A DNA stretch of 51,455 nt. It comes from Sandaracinaceae bacterium (GTDB taxonomy: Bacteria > Myxococcota_A > Polyangia > Polyangiales > Sandaracinaceae). The notes under the pieces were generated by a model that was not told the DNA's origin, made no database searches, and saw only the letters and a program-made list of their open reading frames with translations. Positions 4,306 through 16,724 of this stretch are shown here, in pieces. The stretch covers positions 1 to 51,455 of the forward strand of contig JAHBWG010000070.1 in the NCBI GenBank assembly GCA_019637095.1, read 5' to 3'. A program made the translations under genes and the position numbers. The stretch's first letter is position 1. The number at the start of each line of letters is the position of its first letter.

Positions 4306-5229
4306 TCAACGTCCGAGGGTCCACGGCCCGCCCGGTTGCCAGCGCTGCTCGAAGCTCTCGCCGCCTTCGCAGGCGCGCGCGATCGGCAGCAGGAACTCGG
4401 CGAGGACCGGCGCGACGTCGGACAGCTTCTCGGGGCACTCGGTGTTCGGGAGCTTCTTTCGGAACGCGGTCCACTGCGCCACGGTCGACGCCTGCTCGGT
4501 GAACGCTGGTGTGAAGGCGATCGGCTCGACGTCGATGGCGGTCTCGCGGTTAGCGAAGGTGGCGGCGATGGCCTTCGCGAGCACCGAGCCGTCGAAGGCG
4601 AACTGCCTCGCGAGCAGCCACACGTCGTAGAAGTCCTTCATGCGGCTGTTCAGGGTGCGCAGGTAGACCATCGCCTGGAACTTCTCGGCGACCACCGTCT
4701 CGCGCGGGTAGCCCGAGAGCGCGGGCGCAGGGAAGTCGAGCAGCGCCGGGTACGTGATGTCTACCGCGCCGGGCGTGACGACGTCGCCGAACCCGACATC
4801 GAGCTGCATCGTGATGCGCGCCTTGCCGAGCAGGCCAACGAAGCGGACGCGCACGCCCTCGTAGTCCGCGTCCTCCTTGATGCGCTCGGTCTTGACCGTG
4901 GCCGGGTCGAACGCCATGCCGTCGGGCTCCACGTCGGCGGTGCAGACCTCGCGGACCACGCGCTCGAGGTTCTCGAGCGAGTTGTCGAGACGCCCGAGGA
5001 AGTCGAGGTCCTTCGTTGCACGCGCGAGCGGCGCGTCCCACACGTGCAGCATCAGCGCGCCCTTGAGAACGAAGCGCGCGCGGTGAGGGGTGGTCGACAG
5101 CCGGTAGAGGAAGCGCTCCATCGCGTAATACTGGAGCAGCTCCTGGAACGGCCGTTTGGTCGCGCGCGCGTGGTTCTGGAGACGGGCCTGCACCGAGGCG
5201 GCCAGGTTAGAGGGGTTCTTCACGGTCAC
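4306..5229 (-). CDS. abiEii: AbiEii-type nucleotidyltransferase toxin
   Basis: This is a 307-residue toxin of a type IV toxin-antitoxin/abortive-infection system. The family transfers nucleotides to RNA targets (tRNA in studied homologues) and blocks growth, for example on phage infection. Visible motifs are 'FVLKGALML' (54-62), 'RATKDLDFLG' (70-79, with the D74-x-D76 metal site), 'TVVAEKFQAM' and 'SRMKDFYDVW', in the usual order and spacing. The start is a GTG whose bases overlap the antitoxin stop as GTGA (5226-5229), so translation is coupled. Length is normal for the family. It is probably transcribed from the promoter upstream of abiEi. Confidence 0.93.
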   Translation of the reverse strand: MTVKNPSNLAASVQARLQNHARATKRPFQELLQYYAMERFLYRLSTTPHRARFVLKGALMLHVWDAPLARATKDLDFLGRLDNSLENLERVVREVCTADVEPDGMAFDPATVKTERIKEDADYEGVRVRFVGLLGKARITMQLDVGFGDVVTPGAVDITYPALLDFPAPALSGYPRETVVAEKFQAMVYLRTLNSRMKDFYDVWLLARQFAFDGSVLAKAIAATFANRETAIDVEPIAFTPAFTEQASTVAQWTAFRKKLPNTECPEKLSDVAPVLAEFLLPIARACEGGESFEQRWQPGGPWTLGR

Positions 5230-5831
5230 TGGGTCGCCTCCAGGTAGGGGCGCATCGCGCGCTCGACGTGCCGCATGCGGGCGTACTTCAGCAGGACGTC
5301 GAGCTTCTTGCGTCGGCGTTCACGCCAGCGCCGGAGCGCCTCCAGCACGACGTCGATGCCGATCTGGTTCCGGTACCGGAAGCAATCGACTAGGGTCTTC
5401 TCCGGGTCGTATATGCGGACCGGCACGCCGTCGAGCTCGTGCGTCTCGATGCCCTCGTGGAAAGCCGGCCCGGAGAACCAGAAGAAGCGCGTTGGCGGGT
5501 AGTCGAGGCGCGGCTTCCGCGTCCCGCGTTCGAGCGCAACGTCGGTCACGTGCGGCACCTGCGTCGTCAGCTCGTGGAACGAGAGCGCCGAGATCAGGCA
5601 GAGGACGCCGTGCGGCACGCGTTTGGCCACCGTGACGAGGTCCGGGTGGGCAAGCGGCTCGAGCGACGCGAGGCGGTACACCCCTCGGGAGACGGGCTCG
5701 ACGACGCCGGCGTCGCGCATGGCGTAGAGGGTCTTCCGGTTGATGCCCAGGCTCAGCGCCTCGGTCATGCGAAGACCGCCACCGTGCCGGCGGAACAGCT
5801 CGACCTCGCGCTCGTAGACCTTGGACGCCAC
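5226..5831 (-). CDS. abiEi: AbiEi-type antitoxin, winged-helix transcription regulator
   Basis: This is a 201-residue cognate antitoxin. The N-terminal winged helix (about residues 8-55, 'INRKTLYAMRDAGVVEPVSRG') binds DNA, and the C-terminal domain carries the antitoxin function in this family. Members bind inverted repeats in their own promoter; a matching palindrome lies at 5843-5869, just upstream. The start is GTG at 5831 with no Shine-Dalgarno sequence. The predicted transcription start lies only a few bases ahead of it, so the message may be leaderless. It overlaps the toxin start by 4 bases. AbiE antitoxins of this size are common. Confidence 0.92.
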   Translation of the reverse strand: MASKVYEREVELFRRHGGGLRMTEALSLGINRKTLYAMRDAGVVEPVSRGVYRLASLEPLAHPDLVTVAKRVPHGVLCLISALSFHELTTQVPHVTDVALERGTRKPRLDYPPTRFFWFSGPAFHEGIETHELDGVPVRIYDPEKTLVDCFRYRNQIGIDVVLEALRRWRERRRKKLDVLLKYARMRHVERAMRPYLEATQ

Positions 5832-8881: not shown

Positions 8882-11800
8882 CTACTGCCACCACGCGCCG
8901 CCGCGACGGCGAGGCGGCGGGCGGGGCGCGGCGGGCTCGTCGGTGAGCGTGGGCTCGGGCCCCGCGGGCAGGGTGGGCTCGGGCCCGGCGGGCGCGGCGC
9001 CGGTCGGCGCCGGGGTCGCGGCCGCGCCGGTCGGAGCCGCCGGCACGGGGGGCGGCACCCACGCGGAGCCCTCGATCGGCGGCATGAGCAGCGTGCGGAA
9101 GCGCGGGCGCCACGCGTACGGCCGCTCGTCGATCAGCGTGGTCGTGAGCGCGCGCGCGTCGCGCTGGCGCTGCGTGAAGTCGGTCACGTTGGTGCCCGAG
9201 ATGCGGAAGCGGAGCGCGTCGCGCAGGAACTCGAGCTGCTCCTCGTAGCGGCGCGCGGGCGTCACCTGGCGCGCCTGCCCTTGCTGGCGCTCGCGCGACT
9301 CGGGGGGCGCGAAGTCGGTGAAGCCCGTGAACTCGAGGTGCAGCGTCGCCGGGGTCACGAGCACCGCCTGCGGCGCCTCCGCCGTGCCGCCGGTGGCCGA
9401 GCGGAGGCGGTCCGCCGCCGTCCCGGTGAGGCGCCCCGCCGTCTCCGAGGTGATCCCGATCGTCCGGGCGATCCCCATGTTCAGTCGGCGCTGCGCGAGC
9501 CGGCGCGCGCGCTCGCCCGCCTCGCCGGTGTCGATGCCGCGCGCACCCGCCGGCGGCGTGAGGTTCACGTGGTAGGCGACCTGCTGGACGAGCCGCGTGA
9601 GCACCTGCGGCTGCAGGCTCGTCAGCTCCGTCAGCTGCGCGACGTGCTCCTGGTCGCCCGAGGGCGTCGCGACCCAGAGCGAGTCGATGAAGCCCTGCCA
9701 CTCCTCGACGTACTTCTCGAGGAAGTAGGCGCGCAGGTTCGCCACCTGACGCTCGCGCAGCAGCTGCGCCTGGTGCTCGTTCTCCGGCGGCTCGTTGCCG
9801 AGCACCCAGTGCTCGCGGAAGAACTCCGCCGCCTCTTCGTCGATCATCGTCTGGACGTGCTGCTCCCACGCGGGACGCGTGAACGCGGCGCGCACCTGCG
9901 CCCGCGCGCGCAGCCACGACGTCTCGCGCCCGACGAGCGAGCGCAGCGTGACGTCCGGCATGTGGTGACGGCGCTCGACGCGGTCGATGATGCCGTGCAC
10001 CGCCATCTCCTCGTTGCCGAGGAGGTTGAACGCGCCGCGGATCGCGCCGACCGCGCGCATGTCGCGCGGGAAGTAGAGCGCGGGATCGGCGCCGAGCGCG
10101 TTCACGTAGTAGCGCAGGTTCTCTTCCATCATCGGGTAGCGCGGGTCGTGCCGCGGGACCTCCGTCGCCTCGCGCCAGCGGCTCTTCAGCCGCTCGACCA
10201 CCCAGTCCCGCATCGGCCCGTTGATGTCGGGCTCGCGATCCGCGCGCGGCACCGTCAACACGATGTGCAGCTTCAAGCGCTCGTACATCTCGCGCATCTC
10301 GCGGGCCTCGGCGGACGCCGTCGGGCCGAGCGCCTCGAGGCGCTGCTCGAACTCGTGGATCTGCGCGCCGTCGCGGGCGAGCAGCGGCCCGACGACCCGC
10401 CGCCGCAGGGCGTCGAGGTAGACGGCGCGCACCGGCTCGTGCACGCGGCCCTGGTACATGCCGAAGCTCATGAGCAGCGGCGGCCCGCGGCGATCGTAGG
10501 TGCCGAGCTCGACGGCCCGCTGGCGCAGCGGCTCGATCGCCTCGGCGCCGAGCGGCGTGCGCTCGTCGCCGCCGACCACCACCTCGCGCGCCGCGTCGAT
10601 CCGCTCGCGCGTCTCCTCGAGGTAGGCGCGGTTCTTCGCCCACGCGAGCGCGGGGAAGCCGCTGACCGCGAGCGAGAGCCCGAACAGCGTCGCCGCCGCG
10701 ATCCAGGTGCGCACGCGCTGGCGCCGGATCTCCTCCGGGCTGCGGACGGCGACCTCGGCGTCCTTGAACACGACGTTCGAGAACACGTCGCGCAGGAAGT
10801 AGCTCTTGGCCTCCACCTGCGGCGCGGGGAGCTGCACGTCGGGCTGCCCGAACGCCTGCGCCATCTTGCTCATGACGCGATCGATCGGCCGGCCCTCCTG
10901 CGTGCCGCTGGTGAAGTACACGCCGCGCAGGAGCGGCGTCTCCCTGAAGACGTTCTCGCTGAAGAGCGCGTGGCAGAACTCCGCCATGTTCCCGCGCAGG
11001 ACCTCGATCTGCTGCGGGAACGCGTAGATGAGCTCGCGGTTCGAGATCTTGCGATCCTCGCCCATCCGCTTGACCGAGCGGTGCGTCAGGACCTTCACGA
11101 GCTTGTCGAACCCCTCGAGGAAGTACTCGCGCGGCGGCGCGGTCTTCTTCGCGAGCGGGCGCGTGAAGCCCCAGATCTGCCCGCGGTCCTGCTTGGGCAG
11201 GTCGCCGAAGGTCTCGACGAAGCCGGGGATGAGGTCGCACTTGGTGAAGAGCACGTAGACGGGGAGGCTCATCTTGAGCCTCCCCTGCACCTCGTCGATG
11301 CGGTCGCGGATGCGGCGCGCGAGCGCGGCGACCTCGTCCTCGCGAGCGCCGCCGACGTCGTCCACGCTGACCGCCGCGATCATCCCGTTCAGCGGCTTCT
11401 TCGGGCGGAAGCGGCGGATGAGATCGAGGAACCCGATCCACTCGTCGTGATCCTCGTCCTCGCTCGTCCAGCGGCCGGCGGTGTCGAGGATCACGCCGTT
11501 GCTCGTCATCCACCAGTCGCAGTTGCGCGTGCCGCCGAGGCCGCGGACGCCGCCGCCGGACGCGGACAGGTACGGGAACTCGAGCCCGGAGTTGCGCAGC
11601 GCGGTGCTCTTGCCGCAGCCGGGCGGGCCGATGATCGCGTACCAGGGCAGCGCGTAGAGCGCCTTCTTGCCGCCCTTCTTCGAGGTCTTGAGCGCGGAGA
11701 TGGCCTTCTGGAACTCGGCCTGCATCTCGGCGATCTCGTGCTGCAGGTCGGGGCGCGCGCTCGCCGCCTGCGCCTGCGCCTGCGCCGCGAGCGCCTTCTC

Positions 11801-11971
11801 GAGCTCGCGCGCGGCGCGGCGCTCGCGGAGCTTCTCGAGCCCGACGAGCAGGACCAGCACGAGCGCCACGACGAGCGTGACGAGGAGCGGGATCCAGAGC
11901 GGGAAGTCGATGAGCAGCGCGATGACCCAGGCGAGGATCACGATCACGCTGCCGACGATGTACTTGATCAT
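8882..11971 (-). CDS. tssM: Type VI secretion system protein TssM/IcmF
   Basis: This is a 1029-residue inner-membrane component of the T6SS membrane complex. Two N-terminal membrane segments (about 3-22 and 26-45) precede a coiled stretch and an NTPase domain with P-loop GPPGCGKST (115-123), Walker B-like LDTAG (162-166) and TKCD (243-246). A third membrane segment (422-446) leads to the large periplasmic part. It is somewhat shorter than many TssM proteins (about 1100-1200), and the C-terminus is Pro/Ala-rich low-complexity ('APTGAAATPAPTGAAPAG'). No tssJ, tssK, tssL, sheath or hcp gene is visible here, so the copy is solitary in this window. The small gene at 12086 lies upstream on the same strand. 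Confidence 0.93.
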   Translation of the reverse strand: MIKYIVGSVIVILAWVIALLIDFPLWIPLLVTLVVALVLVLLVGLEKLRERRAARELEKALAAQAQAQAASARPDLQHEIAEMQAEFQKAISALKTSKKGGKKALYALPWYAIIGPPGCGKSTALRNSGLEFPYLSASGGGVRGLGGTRNCDWWMTSNGVILDTAGRWTSEDEDHDEWIGFLDLIRRFRPKKPLNGMIAAVSVDDVGGAREDEVAALARRIRDRIDEVQGRLKMSLPVYVLFTKCDLIPGFVETFGDLPKQDRGQIWGFTRPLAKKTAPPREYFLEGFDKLVKVLTHRSVKRMGEDRKISNRELIYAFPQQIEVLRGNMAEFCHALFSENVFRETPLLRGVYFTSGTQEGRPIDRVMSKMAQAFGQPDVQLPAPQVEAKSYFLRDVFSNVVFKDAEVAVRSPEEIRRQRVRTWIAAATLFGLSLAVSGFPALAWAKNRAYLEETRERIDAAREVVVGGDERTPLGAEAIEPLRQRAVELGTYDRRGPPLLMSFGMYQGRVHEPVRAVYLDALRRRVVGPLLARDGAQIHEFEQRLEALGPTASAEAREMREMYERLKLHIVLTVPRADREPDINGPMRDWVVERLKSRWREATEVPRHDPRYPMMEENLRYYVNALGADPALYFPRDMRAVGAIRGAFNLLGNEEMAVHGIIDRVERRHHMPDVTLRSLVGRETSWLRARAQVRAAFTRPAWEQHVQTMIDEEAAEFFREHWVLGNEPPENEHQAQLLRERQVANLRAYFLEKYVEEWQGFIDSLWVATPSGDQEHVAQLTELTSLQPQVLTRLVQQVAYHVNLTPPAGARGIDTGEAGERARRLAQRRLNMGIARTIGITSETAGRLTGTAADRLRSATGGTAEAPQAVLVTPATLHLEFTGFTDFAPPESRERQQGQARQVTPARRYEEQLEFLRDALRFRISGTNVTDFTQRQRDARALTTTLIDERPYAWRPRFRTLLMPPIEGSAWVPPPVPAAPTGAAATPAPTGAAPAGPEPTLPAGPEPTLTDEPAAPRPPPRRRGGAWWQ

Positions 11972-12550: not shown

Positions 12551-13966
12551 ATGCGCCGCGCTCGTGCGCTCATCGGGATCGCCGCGCTCGCGCTCGCCGG
12601 AGGCGGCGCGATCGCGCAGGACCTGCCCGCGCGGTGCACGGATCTGACGCGCGCCGACGCCGCCGGGCGCTTCGTCGCGATGCTCGACCTCGCCCGCCCC
12701 GAGAGCCCGCTCGACGGTGACGACCTGCTCGCGGTGGTCGATCGCTCGCCCGAGGGCGCGCTCGCGCCGGACTACCGCCCCGACGACCTCGTCGACCTGA
12801 CGACGATGCGCCCGGCGCGCGCATCCCAGTGTACGCCGCCCGCGCGGCAGTGCCTGCGGCGCGAGGCCGCGCACGCGTACCGCGAGCTCGCGCGCGCGAT
12901 GCGCGACGCGGGCCACGTCCCCCACGTCACGAGCGCGTTCCGCGACTACCGCGTGCAGTGCTCGACGTTCCAGCGGTGGGTGAGCCGCGGCGGGTTCTGC
13001 GAGGCCGCGCAGGCGAGCGCGCTCCCCGGCCACTCGCAGCACCAGCTCGGCACGACGCTCGATCTGTTCACGTACGCGTGGACGCTCGGCGGCGACAAGT
13101 TCCGCCCGGGCTTCGGCTGCTCGGAGGGCGGCCGCTGGCTCGCGGAGCACGCCGAGTCGTTCGGCTTCGTCGTGCCCTACCCGCTGCACCCCGATCACCG
13201 TGTGGCGGGCAGCACGTGCGCGGCGATCGACGGCGACGAGGCGCGCCTCGACCCGCGGACCGGCTATCGCTACGAGCCCTGGCACCTGCGCTACGTCGGG
13301 CGCGAGACGGTCGCGCGCTTCCGCGCCGCCCGCGAGGCGAGCGGCCCCGACACCGCGGCCGAGATCACCCTCGATCAGTTCCTGCGCGCGCACCGCGGCG
13401 CGGCGCGACCGGTCGGCGTGCCGGTTTGCGACGGCTGCAACTGCGATCGCTGCGCGACGTACGCGCCCGACGGACCGTGCGCGCCGCCGGCGTGGCGCCT
13501 CGACGCGTCGGGCCACCTGCCCGCGCCCGCGCACGCGCCGCGCCTGCGGTCCGCCGCGCTGTCACGGCGCGGGCCCGAGCTCGTGCTCGAGGCGCGGATC
13601 GAGGTCGCGCCGAACACGGCGACGCACGGCCCGATCGTGACCGAGCGCTCCGGCGCCTGGTACGCGCGCGGCGCCCGCGAGGTGAGGCTCGCGAGCGGCA
13701 CGTCGCGCGCGTTCCCCGCCATCGACGGCGCGCACCGCCTCGCGATCGGCTTCGGCGATCGCGGGGACTGGCCGTGGCACGCGGCGCTCGTCGGCCCCGA
13801 CCGCGACGGCGCCGAGAACGGGTTCGACGCGCCGATCCCGGCGGCGCCCGGCGTGCTCGTGGTGCGCGTCCCCATGCGCGGCGTGCGCGCGGGCACGGAG
13901 GTGCGCGTCGGGATCGCGCACGCGCACGACCCCGTCGCGCTCGCGTGGACCGGGGCCGCGCCGTGA
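12551..13966 (+). CDS. Secreted D-alanyl-D-alanine carboxypeptidase, VanY/M15B family
   Basis: This is a 471-residue exported zinc peptidase. A signal peptide (1-22) ends at AIAQ. The M15 motifs are clear: 'SAFRDY' (R131), 'HSQHQLGTTLDL' (H164 and D171) and 'EPWHLRYVG' (H245, with E242 as likely general base). Six or more Cys residues in the core suggest disulphides in the periplasm. After about residue 285 a Cys-rich link ('CDGCNCDRC') joins a beta-rich C-terminal domain of unknown role. M15B enzymes trim peptidoglycan stem peptides. The stop overlaps the GTG of the next gene (GTGA), which makes it the first gene of a three-gene operon. Confidence 0.9.
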   Translation: MRRARALIGIAALALAGGGAIAQDLPARCTDLTRADAAGRFVAMLDLARPESPLDGDDLLAVVDRSPEGALAPDYRPDDLVDLTTMRPARASQCTPPARQCLRREAAHAYRELARAMRDAGHVPHVTSAFRDYRVQCSTFQRWVSRGGFCEAAQASALPGHSQHQLGTTLDLFTYAWTLGGDKFRPGFGCSEGGRWLAEHAESFGFVVPYPLHPDHRVAGSTCAAIDGDEARLDPRTGYRYEPWHLRYVGRETVARFRAAREASGPDTAAEITLDQFLRAHRGAARPVGVPVCDGCNCDRCATYAPDGPCAPPAWRLDASGHLPAPAHAPRLRSAALSRRGPELVLEARIEVAPNTATHGPIVTERSGAWYARGAREVRLASGTSRAFPAIDGAHRLAIGFGDRGDWPWHAALVGPDRDGAENGFDAPIPAAPGVLVVRVPMRGVRAGTEVRVGIAHAHDPVALAWTGAAP

Positions 13967-15264
13967 GCGAGCCCTTCGCTCGCGAGGCGCGCGCGGCCGT
14001 CGCGCGCGCCGCGCGCGAGGCGGAGGGCGCGCCCGGACCGCTCACCGCGCTCGCCCTCTCGACCGGCGCGGTCACGGTCGCGCTCGTCGCGTCGCGGATC
14101 CTCGCGCGCGCGCCGGCGGCGTCGGGAGGATGGGTAGGCGTCGCGCTCGTGACCGGCGCCGCGCTCGCGCTCCTGCTCGCGGTGCCGGTGTGGCGGCTGC
14201 GCGCGCGGCGCCGCGCGAGACCTGCGCCGACGCCGACGAGCGCGCGCTGCCCACGCTGCGCCGCGCCCTTGCTGGCGCACGGCCCGACCGTCGCCGCGCG
14301 CCGCACGTGCGGCCGGTGCGCCGCCGCGCTCCTCGAGGCCGCGGGGCTGTTCGTCGTCGACGCCCCGGAGCGCGCGATCCGGCGGGCGCGCTGGCAGGCG
14401 GCGGCCCGCGCGCGCGTTCGGCGAGGTCGCGCCGCGCCGGTGCTCGGCCCCACGCGGGCGCTCGCGGCGAGCCTCGTCGCGATCGCCGCGGTCACGGCGT
14501 CGGCCCACGCGCTCGGCGTCGTGCCGGACCCGATCGCGCACCTCGAGCTCGCCGAGGACGAAGACCGCGCCGCGGGGCGGCCGGGCATCGCGCGGGCGCT
14601 CGTCGACGCCCCGTCGCTCGGCACGCCGACGCGCGCGTACGCGCCACGGATCGTCGGGACGCAGGTGCTCGCGCGCAGCGGCGCGGGGCCCTGGCACCAG
14701 CTCGCGGTGATCGTCGCGATCCGGGCCCGCAGCGCCCACTGCGTGTTCGCCGACGGCGACGTGGCCTGGGTCGCCGACGACGGACTGCTCGAGCCCGAGC
14801 TCGGCCCGGGCGACGCGGTGCGCGTCGTCGACGGCGAGGGTCGCGCGAGCGACGGTACCGTCACCGCGCGCGTCGGCGCCGCGATCCGCGTGGACGCGCG
14901 CTGGACCAGCGCGGCGCGCGTCCGCGTGCGCGCCGATGCGCCACACCCCGCGCGCGACGGTCCGGCGCGCGAGGTCGCCGCCAACGGCTGGGTCGAGCTC
15001 CGCGACGGCGCCGCCGGCTGGCGTCCCGGGGTGGTCGCCGAGCGCGACGGCCTGCGCGCGCTGGTCCTGCTCGATCGTGGGGACGCGCACTGGGTCGAGC
15101 AAGCCGTATTGCGCCCGCAGGCGATCGGCCCCGGAGTCCGCGTCGAGGCCGACGACCGCCCCGGCGCGTACGTCGTCGCGGCGCGCGTCGGCGACGCGCT
15201 CGTGCTCGTCGACGCGCGCGGCGGCCGGCGCTGGGCCTCGCTCGCCGAGGTGCGGCGGCGTTGA
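13963..15264 (+). CDS. Membrane protein with zinc ribbon and SH3/Tudor-like repeats
   Basis: This 433-residue protein has two membrane segments (about 27-48 and 57-78), then a zinc ribbon with C96-x2-C99 and C116-x2-C119 that resembles TFIIB-type ribbons, then a third segment (166-187). The outer C-terminal half holds repeated beta units of the form 'G..VLA......WHQLAVI...CVFADGDVAWVADDGLL', resembling Agenet/Tudor-like or SH3-like barrels. The start is GTG overlapping the upstream stop, and its own stop overlaps the next start (TTGA), so the three genes are translationally coupled. The function is not known. The zinc site and barrels suggest a binding or scaffold role at the membrane. Confidence 0.75.
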   Translation: MSEPFAREARAAVARAAREAEGAPGPLTALALSTGAVTVALVASRILARAPAASGGWVGVALVTGAALALLLAVPVWRLRARRRARPAPTPTSARCPRCAAPLLAHGPTVAARRTCGRCAAALLEAAGLFVVDAPERAIRRARWQAAARARVRRGRAAPVLGPTRALAASLVAIAAVTASAHALGVVPDPIAHLELAEDEDRAAGRPGIARALVDAPSLGTPTRAYAPRIVGTQVLARSGAGPWHQLAVIVAIRARSAHCVFADGDVAWVADDGLLEPELGPGDAVRVVDGEGRASDGTVTARVGAAIRVDARWTSAARVRVRADAPHPARDGPAREVAANGWVELRDGAAGWRPGVVAERDGLRALVLLDRGDAHWVEQAVLRPQAIGPGVRVEADDRPGAYVVAARVGDALVLVDARGGRRWASLAEVRRR

Positions 15265-16724
15265 CCCTCCTCTTGCCGTGCTGCACGTTCCTGCGCGTCT
15301 TCGACACCACGCCGGAGCGCGAGGTGCTCACGCTCCCCGAGCTCACCGCGGCGCTCCGGCGGTTCGAGGTCAAGACGCAGACCGCCGCGAAGATCGAGCG
15401 CGAGATCGCGCGGATCCGCCAGGCGAGCGCGCGCCTCGCCGCGGGCGAGCCGGTCCGCGGCAAGTTCATGGGGCGCCTCGCCAAGGCGCGTGAGAGCGCG
15501 ACGCGCGCGGGGGAAGAGCCCGCGCGCGCGCTCGTCACGGCGACCGAGCACATGGTCGTCGAGACGGAGAAGAGCGCGAAGCGTGACCTGCGCCTCTGGA
15601 GCCCGGCCCTCTATCGTCCGGGCGCGACGAAGCGCGGCTCGGACGGCGTCACCCACGTCTCGTGCCTCGTGCTCGACTACGACGACGGCACCGCGATCCG
15701 CGAGGCGACGACGACGTGGAGCAGCTGGTTCCACCTCGTCTACACGACGTGGAGCCACACGCCCACGAGCCCGCGCTTCCGCCTCGTGCTCCCGCTCGCG
15801 TTCGCGGTCGCGTCGGAGGACTGGCCGAGCGTCTGGAGCTGGGCGGAGGAGCACGCGCACTTCAGCATCGACCCCGCGATGAAGAGCCCGGCGGCGACGT
15901 ACGCGCTGCCCGCGGTGCGCAGCCTCGAGTGGCCGCGCGAGGCGTTCTCGCGGCCGGGCGCGATCCTCGATCCGGTCGACGTCGGCGTGCTCGCGCGCCG
16001 AACGCGCCTCGCGCTCGAGCCGCTGCGGCCGCCCCACGGGACCCCGAGCGCGCTGCGCGGCGAGGACCCGGAGAAGGAGTACGTCGATCACCTCGACGAG
16101 GACGCGGTCTACTTCGTCGACGAGCCGTGGGAGAGCGACGCGGACTGGGAGCCCGCACCGCTCGCTGGTCCCGCGCCGATCGCCGCGCCCATCGCCGCGG
16201 CCGAGCCGCCCCCCGACCCACCGGCGCGCGCCCCTGCCAGCGGCCTCGTCGACGCGCTCGAGCGGCTCGAGGCGCTGCACGCCCGCGGGTTCCTCAGCGA
16301 TGACGAGGTCGCGCTCGCGAAGGCCAAGCTCCTCGCGCCCGAGCCGGGCGCGCCGCCGCCGCGCCCGCGTATCGGCGTCGACTTCGACGGGGTGCTCCAC
16401 TCGTACGCGAGCGGTTGGCGGGGCGCGGCGGTAGTCGCCGACCCGCCGGTCGCGGGCGCGATCGACTGGCTCGTCGCGCTCGACGAGCGCTTCGACCTCG
16501 CGATCGTGTCGGTGCGCAACGCACACCCCGAGGGCCCGACCGCCATGCGCGCGTGGCTCGGAGCGCACGGCCTGCCCGACCGCGTCCTCTCGCGGATCGC
16601 CTTCCCCGCGAGCCTCCCCGCCGACCTCTCGGTCCTGATCGACGATCGCGCGTTCCGCTTCGAGGGCCGGTTCCCGACGTGGGACGAGCTCGGACGGCTC
16701 GTCCCGTGGCACGAGCGACCGTGA
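15261..16724 (+). CDS. Fusion: primase-polymerase-like domain, SHOCT-like hairpin, HAD phosphatase
   Basis: This is a 487-residue protein with an unusual layout. Residues 130-225 ('SCLVLDYDDG', 'YTTWSHTPTSPRFRLVLPL', 'KSPAATYALPAVRS') resemble the core of phage/plasmid archaeo-eukaryotic-type primases, with D139-x-D141 and H166 as candidate catalytic residues. Residues 329-359 ('LERLEALHARGFLSDDEVALAKAKLL') match the SHOCT pattern. Residues 370-487 form a HAD-like phosphatase (D374-F-D376-G, S417, D461-D462). The TTG start at 15261 overlaps the upstream stop; a GTG at 15324 is an alternative. Nucleic-acid synthesis or end repair is a possible role. The primase match is by eye and needs structure comparison. 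Confidence 0.7.
   Translation: MTLLLPCCTFLRVFDTTPEREVLTLPELTAALRRFEVKTQTAAKIEREIARIRQASARLAAGEPVRGKFMGRLAKARESATRAGEEPARALVTATEHMVVETEKSAKRDLRLWSPALYRPGATKRGSDGVTHVSCLVLDYDDGTAIREATTTWSSWFHLVYTTWSHTPTSPRFRLVLPLAFAVASEDWPSVWSWAEEHAHFSIDPAMKSPAATYALPAVRSLEWPREAFSRPGAILDPVDVGVLARRTRLALEPLRPPHGTPSALRGEDPEKEYVDHLDEDAVYFVDEPWESDADWEPAPLAGPAPIAAPIAAAEPPPDPPARAPASGLVDALERLEALHARGFLSDDEVALAKAKLLAPEPGAPPPRPRIGVDFDGVLHSYASGWRGAAVVADPPVAGAIDWLVALDERFDLAIVSVRNAHPEGPTAMRAWLGAHGLPDRVLSRIAFPASLPADLSVLIDDRAFRFEGRFPTWDELGRLVPWHERP

Follow-up and report, generated by a model that had tools for sequence, protein, structure and literature searches.

The 487-residue product of the third gene in a three-gene unit of a Sandaracinaceae bacterium is best explained, with a probability of about 0.4, as a domesticated phage-type PrimPol that would work in patch synthesis of DNA or in the repair of its ends, the genes ahead of it being recent operon neighbours. 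The unit lies in a stretch of 51,455 nucleotides (contig JAHBWG010000070.1, here called the window) and consists of three same-strand genes placed end to end, which encode a VanY-type peptidase, a membrane protein with a zinc ribbon (ZnR) and Tudor-like barrels, and a protein joining an AEP domain to SHOCT-like and HAD regions. The features are as follows:

12551..13966, + strand: gene 1, VanY-type (peptidase M15B), 471 aa
13963..15264, + strand: gene 2, membrane Zn-ribbon protein, 433 aa, GTG start
15261..16724, + strand: gene 3, AEP-SHOCT-HAD protein, 487 aa, TTG start
15264..15992, + strand: predicted AEP fold, residues 2-244 of gene 3 (6ZP9, Z 9.5; PHROG DNA primase, 4e-10; pLDDT)
15672..15689, + strand: AEP motif I, LDYDDG (D139, D141), invariant in the 23-row alignment
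15747..15758, + strand: AEP motif II, TWSH (S165, H166), invariant in the 23-row alignment
15867..15884, + strand: AEP motif III, IDPAMK (D204), D204 invariant in the 23-row alignment
15894..15896, + strand: motif-IV-like position, Ala212 (Arg in all 23 phage/mobile-type relatives)
16251..16334, + strand: SHOCT-like helical hairpin, residues 331-358 (Pfam SHOCT, E 0.0026)
16356..16703, + strand: HAD phosphatase domain, residues 366-481 (structure matches and alignment)

Both junctions of the unit are 4-bp overlaps: gene 2 starts with the GTG of a GTGA that holds the stop of gene 1, and gene 3 starts with the TTG of a TTGA that holds the stop of gene 2. The earlier note had read these overlaps as coupling the three ORFs in an operon, and this stands, as the gene order and overlap type recur in three further genomes, making four genomes from three genera of one family. 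G345 (L039) has GTGA at both junctions, and G150 (L040) and G489 (L131) have GTGA at the first and ATGA at the second. Since the start codons differ among the four genomes while the 4-bp overlaps are constant, retention of the overlaps exceeds chance. Two observations support the TTG start of gene 3: homology begins at about residue 3, and relatives have GTG or ATG at the corresponding place in the overlap.

The AlphaFold2 model of gene 3, made from 23 sequences, has a mean pLDDT of 85, with most of the AEP domain above 90, and at the level of this predicted structure the N-terminal domain is confirmed as an AEP superfamily primase/polymerase fold. The best structural match of residues 2-244 is the AEP domain of S-2L PrimPol (6ZP9; Z 9.5, E 7.6e-6, rmsd 3.4 over 144 residues), followed by the plasmid primase RepB' (Z 6.9). 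PHROG primase profiles match gene 3 at 4e-10 and 1e-5, and there are 53 matches at E <= 0.001 in the viral model library BFVD, many of them annotated as primases, VirE or helicase-primases; a sequence-based PDB profile search returned chance matches only. The primase-polymerase-like core proposed in the earlier note is thus borne out as a fold, while the limits given for it (residues 130-225) were too narrow, the AEP fold extending over approximately residues 2-244. D139, D141, H166 and D204 are also kept throughout a wider alignment of relatives, which is the motif pattern asked of the AEP superfamily; these residues were paired with those of S-2L by sequence order rather than by superposed coordinates.

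In a tree of 51 AEP cores, made without the motif-IV columns, 28 chromosomal Myxococcota proteins are separated from 23 phage/mobile-type proteins with support of 99/95. The grouping was fixed from context and architecture before the tree was built, the phage-type label denoting a viral contig, a neighbouring DUF927 gene, or a protein that itself carries a Zn ribbon or a helicase such as DUF3987. The sister clade includes L106, with an AEP fused to DUF3987, and L058, with an AEP beside a DUF927 gene, and the Myxococcota clade is seemingly chromosomal and helicase-free. Most of the genomes compared are MAGs, and these labels reflect partial context. Motifs I-III (DxD, SH, D) are kept in both clades, including all 28 chromosomal members. 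In contrast, the Arg of an (S/A/G)-R-h pattern that follows motif III occurs in 23/23 phage-type proteins but in only 3/28 chromosomal ones, being lost in the window and 24 others, a distribution that requires three changes on the tree. This Arg is equated with that of motif IV by order and pattern, not by superposed coordinates. The motif IV Arg is R157 in S-2L, and the motif is essential in PolpTN2 (PMC8065100, PMC5862659). An Arg in motif IV is a criterion of the PrimPol-PV1 supergroup, for which integrated mobile elements are a typical, although not strictly defining, location (Kazlauskas 2018). The window protein departs from this supergroup in having Ala212, and the housekeeping neighbours and conserved synteny of its clade make an integrated-mobile-element location less likely.

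Comparison with individual phage and mobile proteins follows the same lines. The cyanophage S-2L PrimPol, an All3500-like member of PrimPol-PV1, shares with the window protein the AEP fold, the acidic motif I, the motif II His and the motif III Asp, but carries PriCT-2 and a VirE/helicase-like C-terminal part, both missing from the window protein. It also retains R157, whose presumed counterpart in the window protein is Ala, and the window protein is chromosomal and ends in SHOCT-HAD. L058, L093 and L106 fall in the sister clade with the same core motifs (L093 is 46% identical over residues 107-219), but have helicase-type partners or a C-terminal Zn ribbon together with the motif-IV-like Arg, which the window clade mostly does not.

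The SHOCT-like hairpin and the HAD phosphatase domain had also been recognised in the earlier note, and both find support. SHOCT (PF09851) scores 17.9 bits in the window against a curated cut-off of 27, and 31.4 and 29.8 in the homologues L047 and L054, respectively. The HAD domain is structurally similar to a 5'(3')-deoxyribonucleotidase (Z 9.2) and the T4 Pnkp phosphatase (Z 7.8), has a HAD-type PHROG match at 1e-14, and counts phage proteins among its relatives; HAD_SAK_2 matches relatives weakly, under the Pfam cut-off. Like these phosphatases, the window HAD carries the DFDG and DD motifs (DFDG and IDDR), but it lies under the Pfam cut-off, is joined to no kinase or ligase domain, and has its motif III Lys replaced (SLPA rather than SKPP). 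This Lys is absent from the window and G345 and present in G150, G357 and G330. Phosphatases of the HAD superfamily are expected to carry a DxDG nucleophile motif, Lys or Arg in motif III and an acidic motif IV.

C-termini vary considerably among the chromosomal proteins. Within the window's family, the proteins of genera g3 and g4 have a HAD C-terminus; SHOCT-HAD is found in the window, G345 and G150, and SHOCT ends the proteins of L014, L015, L018, L027, L029 and L030. In G150 (L040:8723-10885, - strand), a long low-complexity linker of Ser, Asp, Glu and Ala precedes SHOCT-HAD. L017, L022, L024, L026, L078, L140 and others close with acidic F-D-(D)-L-F tails, often doubled. By a rule-based call, an acidic hydrophobic-Phe tail is present in 9/28 chromosomal and 0/24 phage-type proteins; 7/325 called genes of the same loci pass the rule, the AEP genes themselves being among these controls. 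The doubled [ADEG]F[DE](D)LF motifs of the six named SHOCT-less proteins resemble peptides for docking to a replisome partner. A reading of the tails as SSB-like was rejected, as SSBs from several of the genomes concerned terminate in DDDIPF or EDDIPF and the AEPs in FD(D)LF, which is like in kind but not identical. The tails also do not have the Gln of the sliding-clamp motif (QL[SD]LF type). SHOCT is joined to a degenerate HAD in paralogues from the window's own genome (L134:5049-6160, on G000:C24) and G345 (L135:2658-3870); DxDG is lost in the former, and the second Asp of the DD motif is replaced in both. Each paralogue is directly downstream of a gene for an RRM RNA-binding protein, so that the SHOCT-HAD module appears paired with a second nucleic-acid-binding protein.

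The gene 3 protein is matched in 48/379 drawn Myxococcota genomes. Within the order, an alignment search matches 33/184 genomes, including 8/10 of the window's own family. Part of the matches behind these counts are phage/mobile-type or HAD alone. A genome contig search found no match with the single protein and 25 loci with the alignment, the named relatives being Sandaracinaceae and Polyangia MAGs. Synteny of the AEP gene holds within genera and families, and those neighbours that could be identified have housekeeping functions (CTP synthase, coproporphyrinogen oxidase, enoyl-CoA hydratase). Across families, no conserved neighbour was found, be it a DNA ligase, a helicase or another gene of repair. 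The window and G150 have flanking chromosomal genes in common, TssM among them, and thus the three-gene cluster does not resemble a mobile element. This Type VI secretion TssM/IcmF-related gene (window 8882-11971, - strand) is kept beside the unit in both. Further upstream are an AbiEii toxin/AbiEi antitoxin pair (4306-5831, - strand; Pfam 2.7e-47 and 1.9e-10), 7-8 kb from VanY, and a DDE transposase gene (1062-2678, + strand) about 10 kb from the unit.

Gene 1 matches Pfam VanY (E 7.1e-27) and has intact Zn ligands (GHSQH...LD...EPWH), which are the criteria for a VanY (M15B) D,D-carboxypeptidase. Its hydrophobic N-terminus (residues 4-22) suggests that it is secreted, and alignment of the four orthologues reveals in addition a Cys-rich linker and a further C-terminal domain. 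In gene 2, hydropathy and charge indicate three hydrophobic segments, with CPRC/CGRC at 96/116: two N-terminal TM helices are followed by a zinc ribbon (CxxC...CxxC, 96-119) in a strongly basic, presumably cytoplasmic stretch, a third TM helix and four C-terminal SH3/Tudor-like barrels. The barrels, which the earlier note did not mention, have Foldseek matches to tandem Tudor/KOW folds; confidence in the AF2 model is low to moderate (mean pLDDT 57; 65-80 in the barrels), and the barrel repeats alone were used. If the positive-inside rule applies, the barrels would face the periplasm, on the same side as VanY. The G345 zinc-ribbon protein (L039:10034-11656, - strand) contains a (GS)n run.

The domesticated PrimPol reading takes the computed fold, kept DxD/SH/D residues, separate clade and operon together with predicted catalysis, substrate, phosphatase target and cellular role. 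An ancestor of certain Myxococcota would have retained, as a chromosomal gene, the AEP domain of a primase from a phage or mobile element, free of helicase and Zn ribbon. The Sandaracinaceae line would then have acquired a phage-type HAD phosphatase and, in part, the SHOCT hairpin, with the AEP gene inherited largely vertically, the C-terminal modules exchanged and, in one sub-lineage, the AEP gene placed behind VanY-ZnR. The protein most likely binds DNA gaps or ends, where the AEP site is predicted to add nucleotides and the HAD domain to remove terminal or nucleotide phosphates. Such a division of labour would be akin to that of the polymerase and phosphoesterase domains of LigD, operating without Ku in the window genome. 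The VanY and Zn-ribbon/Tudor operon would be a lineage-specific arrangement for joint expression, any common task being putative. LigD and Prim-PolC are likewise bacterial chromosomal AEPs, but the window protein has no ligase domain, and the phosphoesterase of LigD is not a HAD. LigD provides the precedent of an AEP joined with an end-processing domain (PMC5663958).

This reading is supported by the AEP fold with its PHROG primase matches, invariant motif residues and 99/95 clade, by the housekeeping neighbours, synteny and presence in 8/10 family genomes, and by the helicase-linked sister clade, the deoxyribonucleotidase-, T4 Pnkp- and phage-like HAD, and the LigD precedent. Against it, the window protein and 24 other members have lost the motif-IV-like Arg, the HAD motif III Lys is missing from the window and from G345, and no conserved repair-gene neighbour was found across families. 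Ku also has no match in the window genome (G000, 96% complete) or in most other carriers searched, and a Ku-dependent NHEJ role for gene 3 was therefore dropped. Tentatively, the clade could be described as a cellular, non-mobile Myxococcota AEP family whose nucleotide-binding flange is altered and whose C-terminal docking modules (acidic FDLF tails, SHOCT, HAD) are exchangeable; in Sandaracinaceae, it would form a polymerase-phosphatase on one chain that repairs nucleic acids outside Ku-dependent NHEJ.

With one nucleotide-binding residue missing and the window HAD imperfect, a serious, if rather doubtful, rival is that the AEP core has ceased to polymerise and acts as a sensor or scaffold that binds nucleotides or DNA, in a protein that regulates rather than synthesises and whose HAD is partly degenerate. 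Consistent with this, 25/28 members have lost the motif-IV-like Arg, the HAD domains of the window and G345 have lost the motif III Lys, and the SHOCT-HAD paralogues of the same two genomes have lost catalytic Asp residues. However, a pure scaffold would not need the metal-binding DxD and D or the SH, all of which are retained in all 28, and the AEPs of LigD, an established repair polymerase, also do not have the flange Arg (PMC5862659).

The envelope genes and the phage relatives suggest two further alternatives. The earlier note had envisaged one system joining envelope and nucleic-acid functions. In such a system, VanY would open the wall, the membrane protein would pass a signal or substrate, and the AEP-HAD protein would act on internal DNA, for example in DNA uptake or envelope-stress-linked genome repair. 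VanY and ZnR orthologues are found in four genomes only, each time alongside the AEP gene, with both 4-bp overlaps retained across three genera despite changed start codons. However, every other carrier examined, whether from another genus of the family or from a different family, has the AEP gene without the pair. The three-gene order is therefore kept in the three further genomes while the AEP gene stands apart elsewhere, which by the standard set in the earlier note counts in part against its reading, and a joint system is not supported in general; it is possible in this sub-lineage only and there unlikely, as the pair may have landed beside the AEP gene just once and the unit contains no competence or secretion gene. 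More improbable still is a phage or conflict remnant, in which an anti-phage gene or a replication gene from a prophage would continue to act on phages. The phage link drawn in the earlier note is real in that both catalytic domains of gene 3 have phage relatives, and the AbiEii/AbiEi pair is located upstream, but no phage genes are recognised adjacent to the unit, and synteny and the largely vertical pattern point away from it. PADLOC gave no defence family at E <= 1 for any of the three proteins, and a defence function was dropped on this ground.

Neither an AEP-HAD fusion nor a myxobacterial PrimPol was found in the open-access literature searched. A supported clade of phage-type AEPs looks like part of the usual chromosomal make-up of a bacterial family, having mostly lost the Arg that its phage relatives keep and acquired new fusions. 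If active, its members would be a further kind of chromosomal AEP beside LigD and Prim-PolC, with the AEP-HAD fusion as an addition; if inactive, the clade would illustrate a phage primase turned into a binding module.
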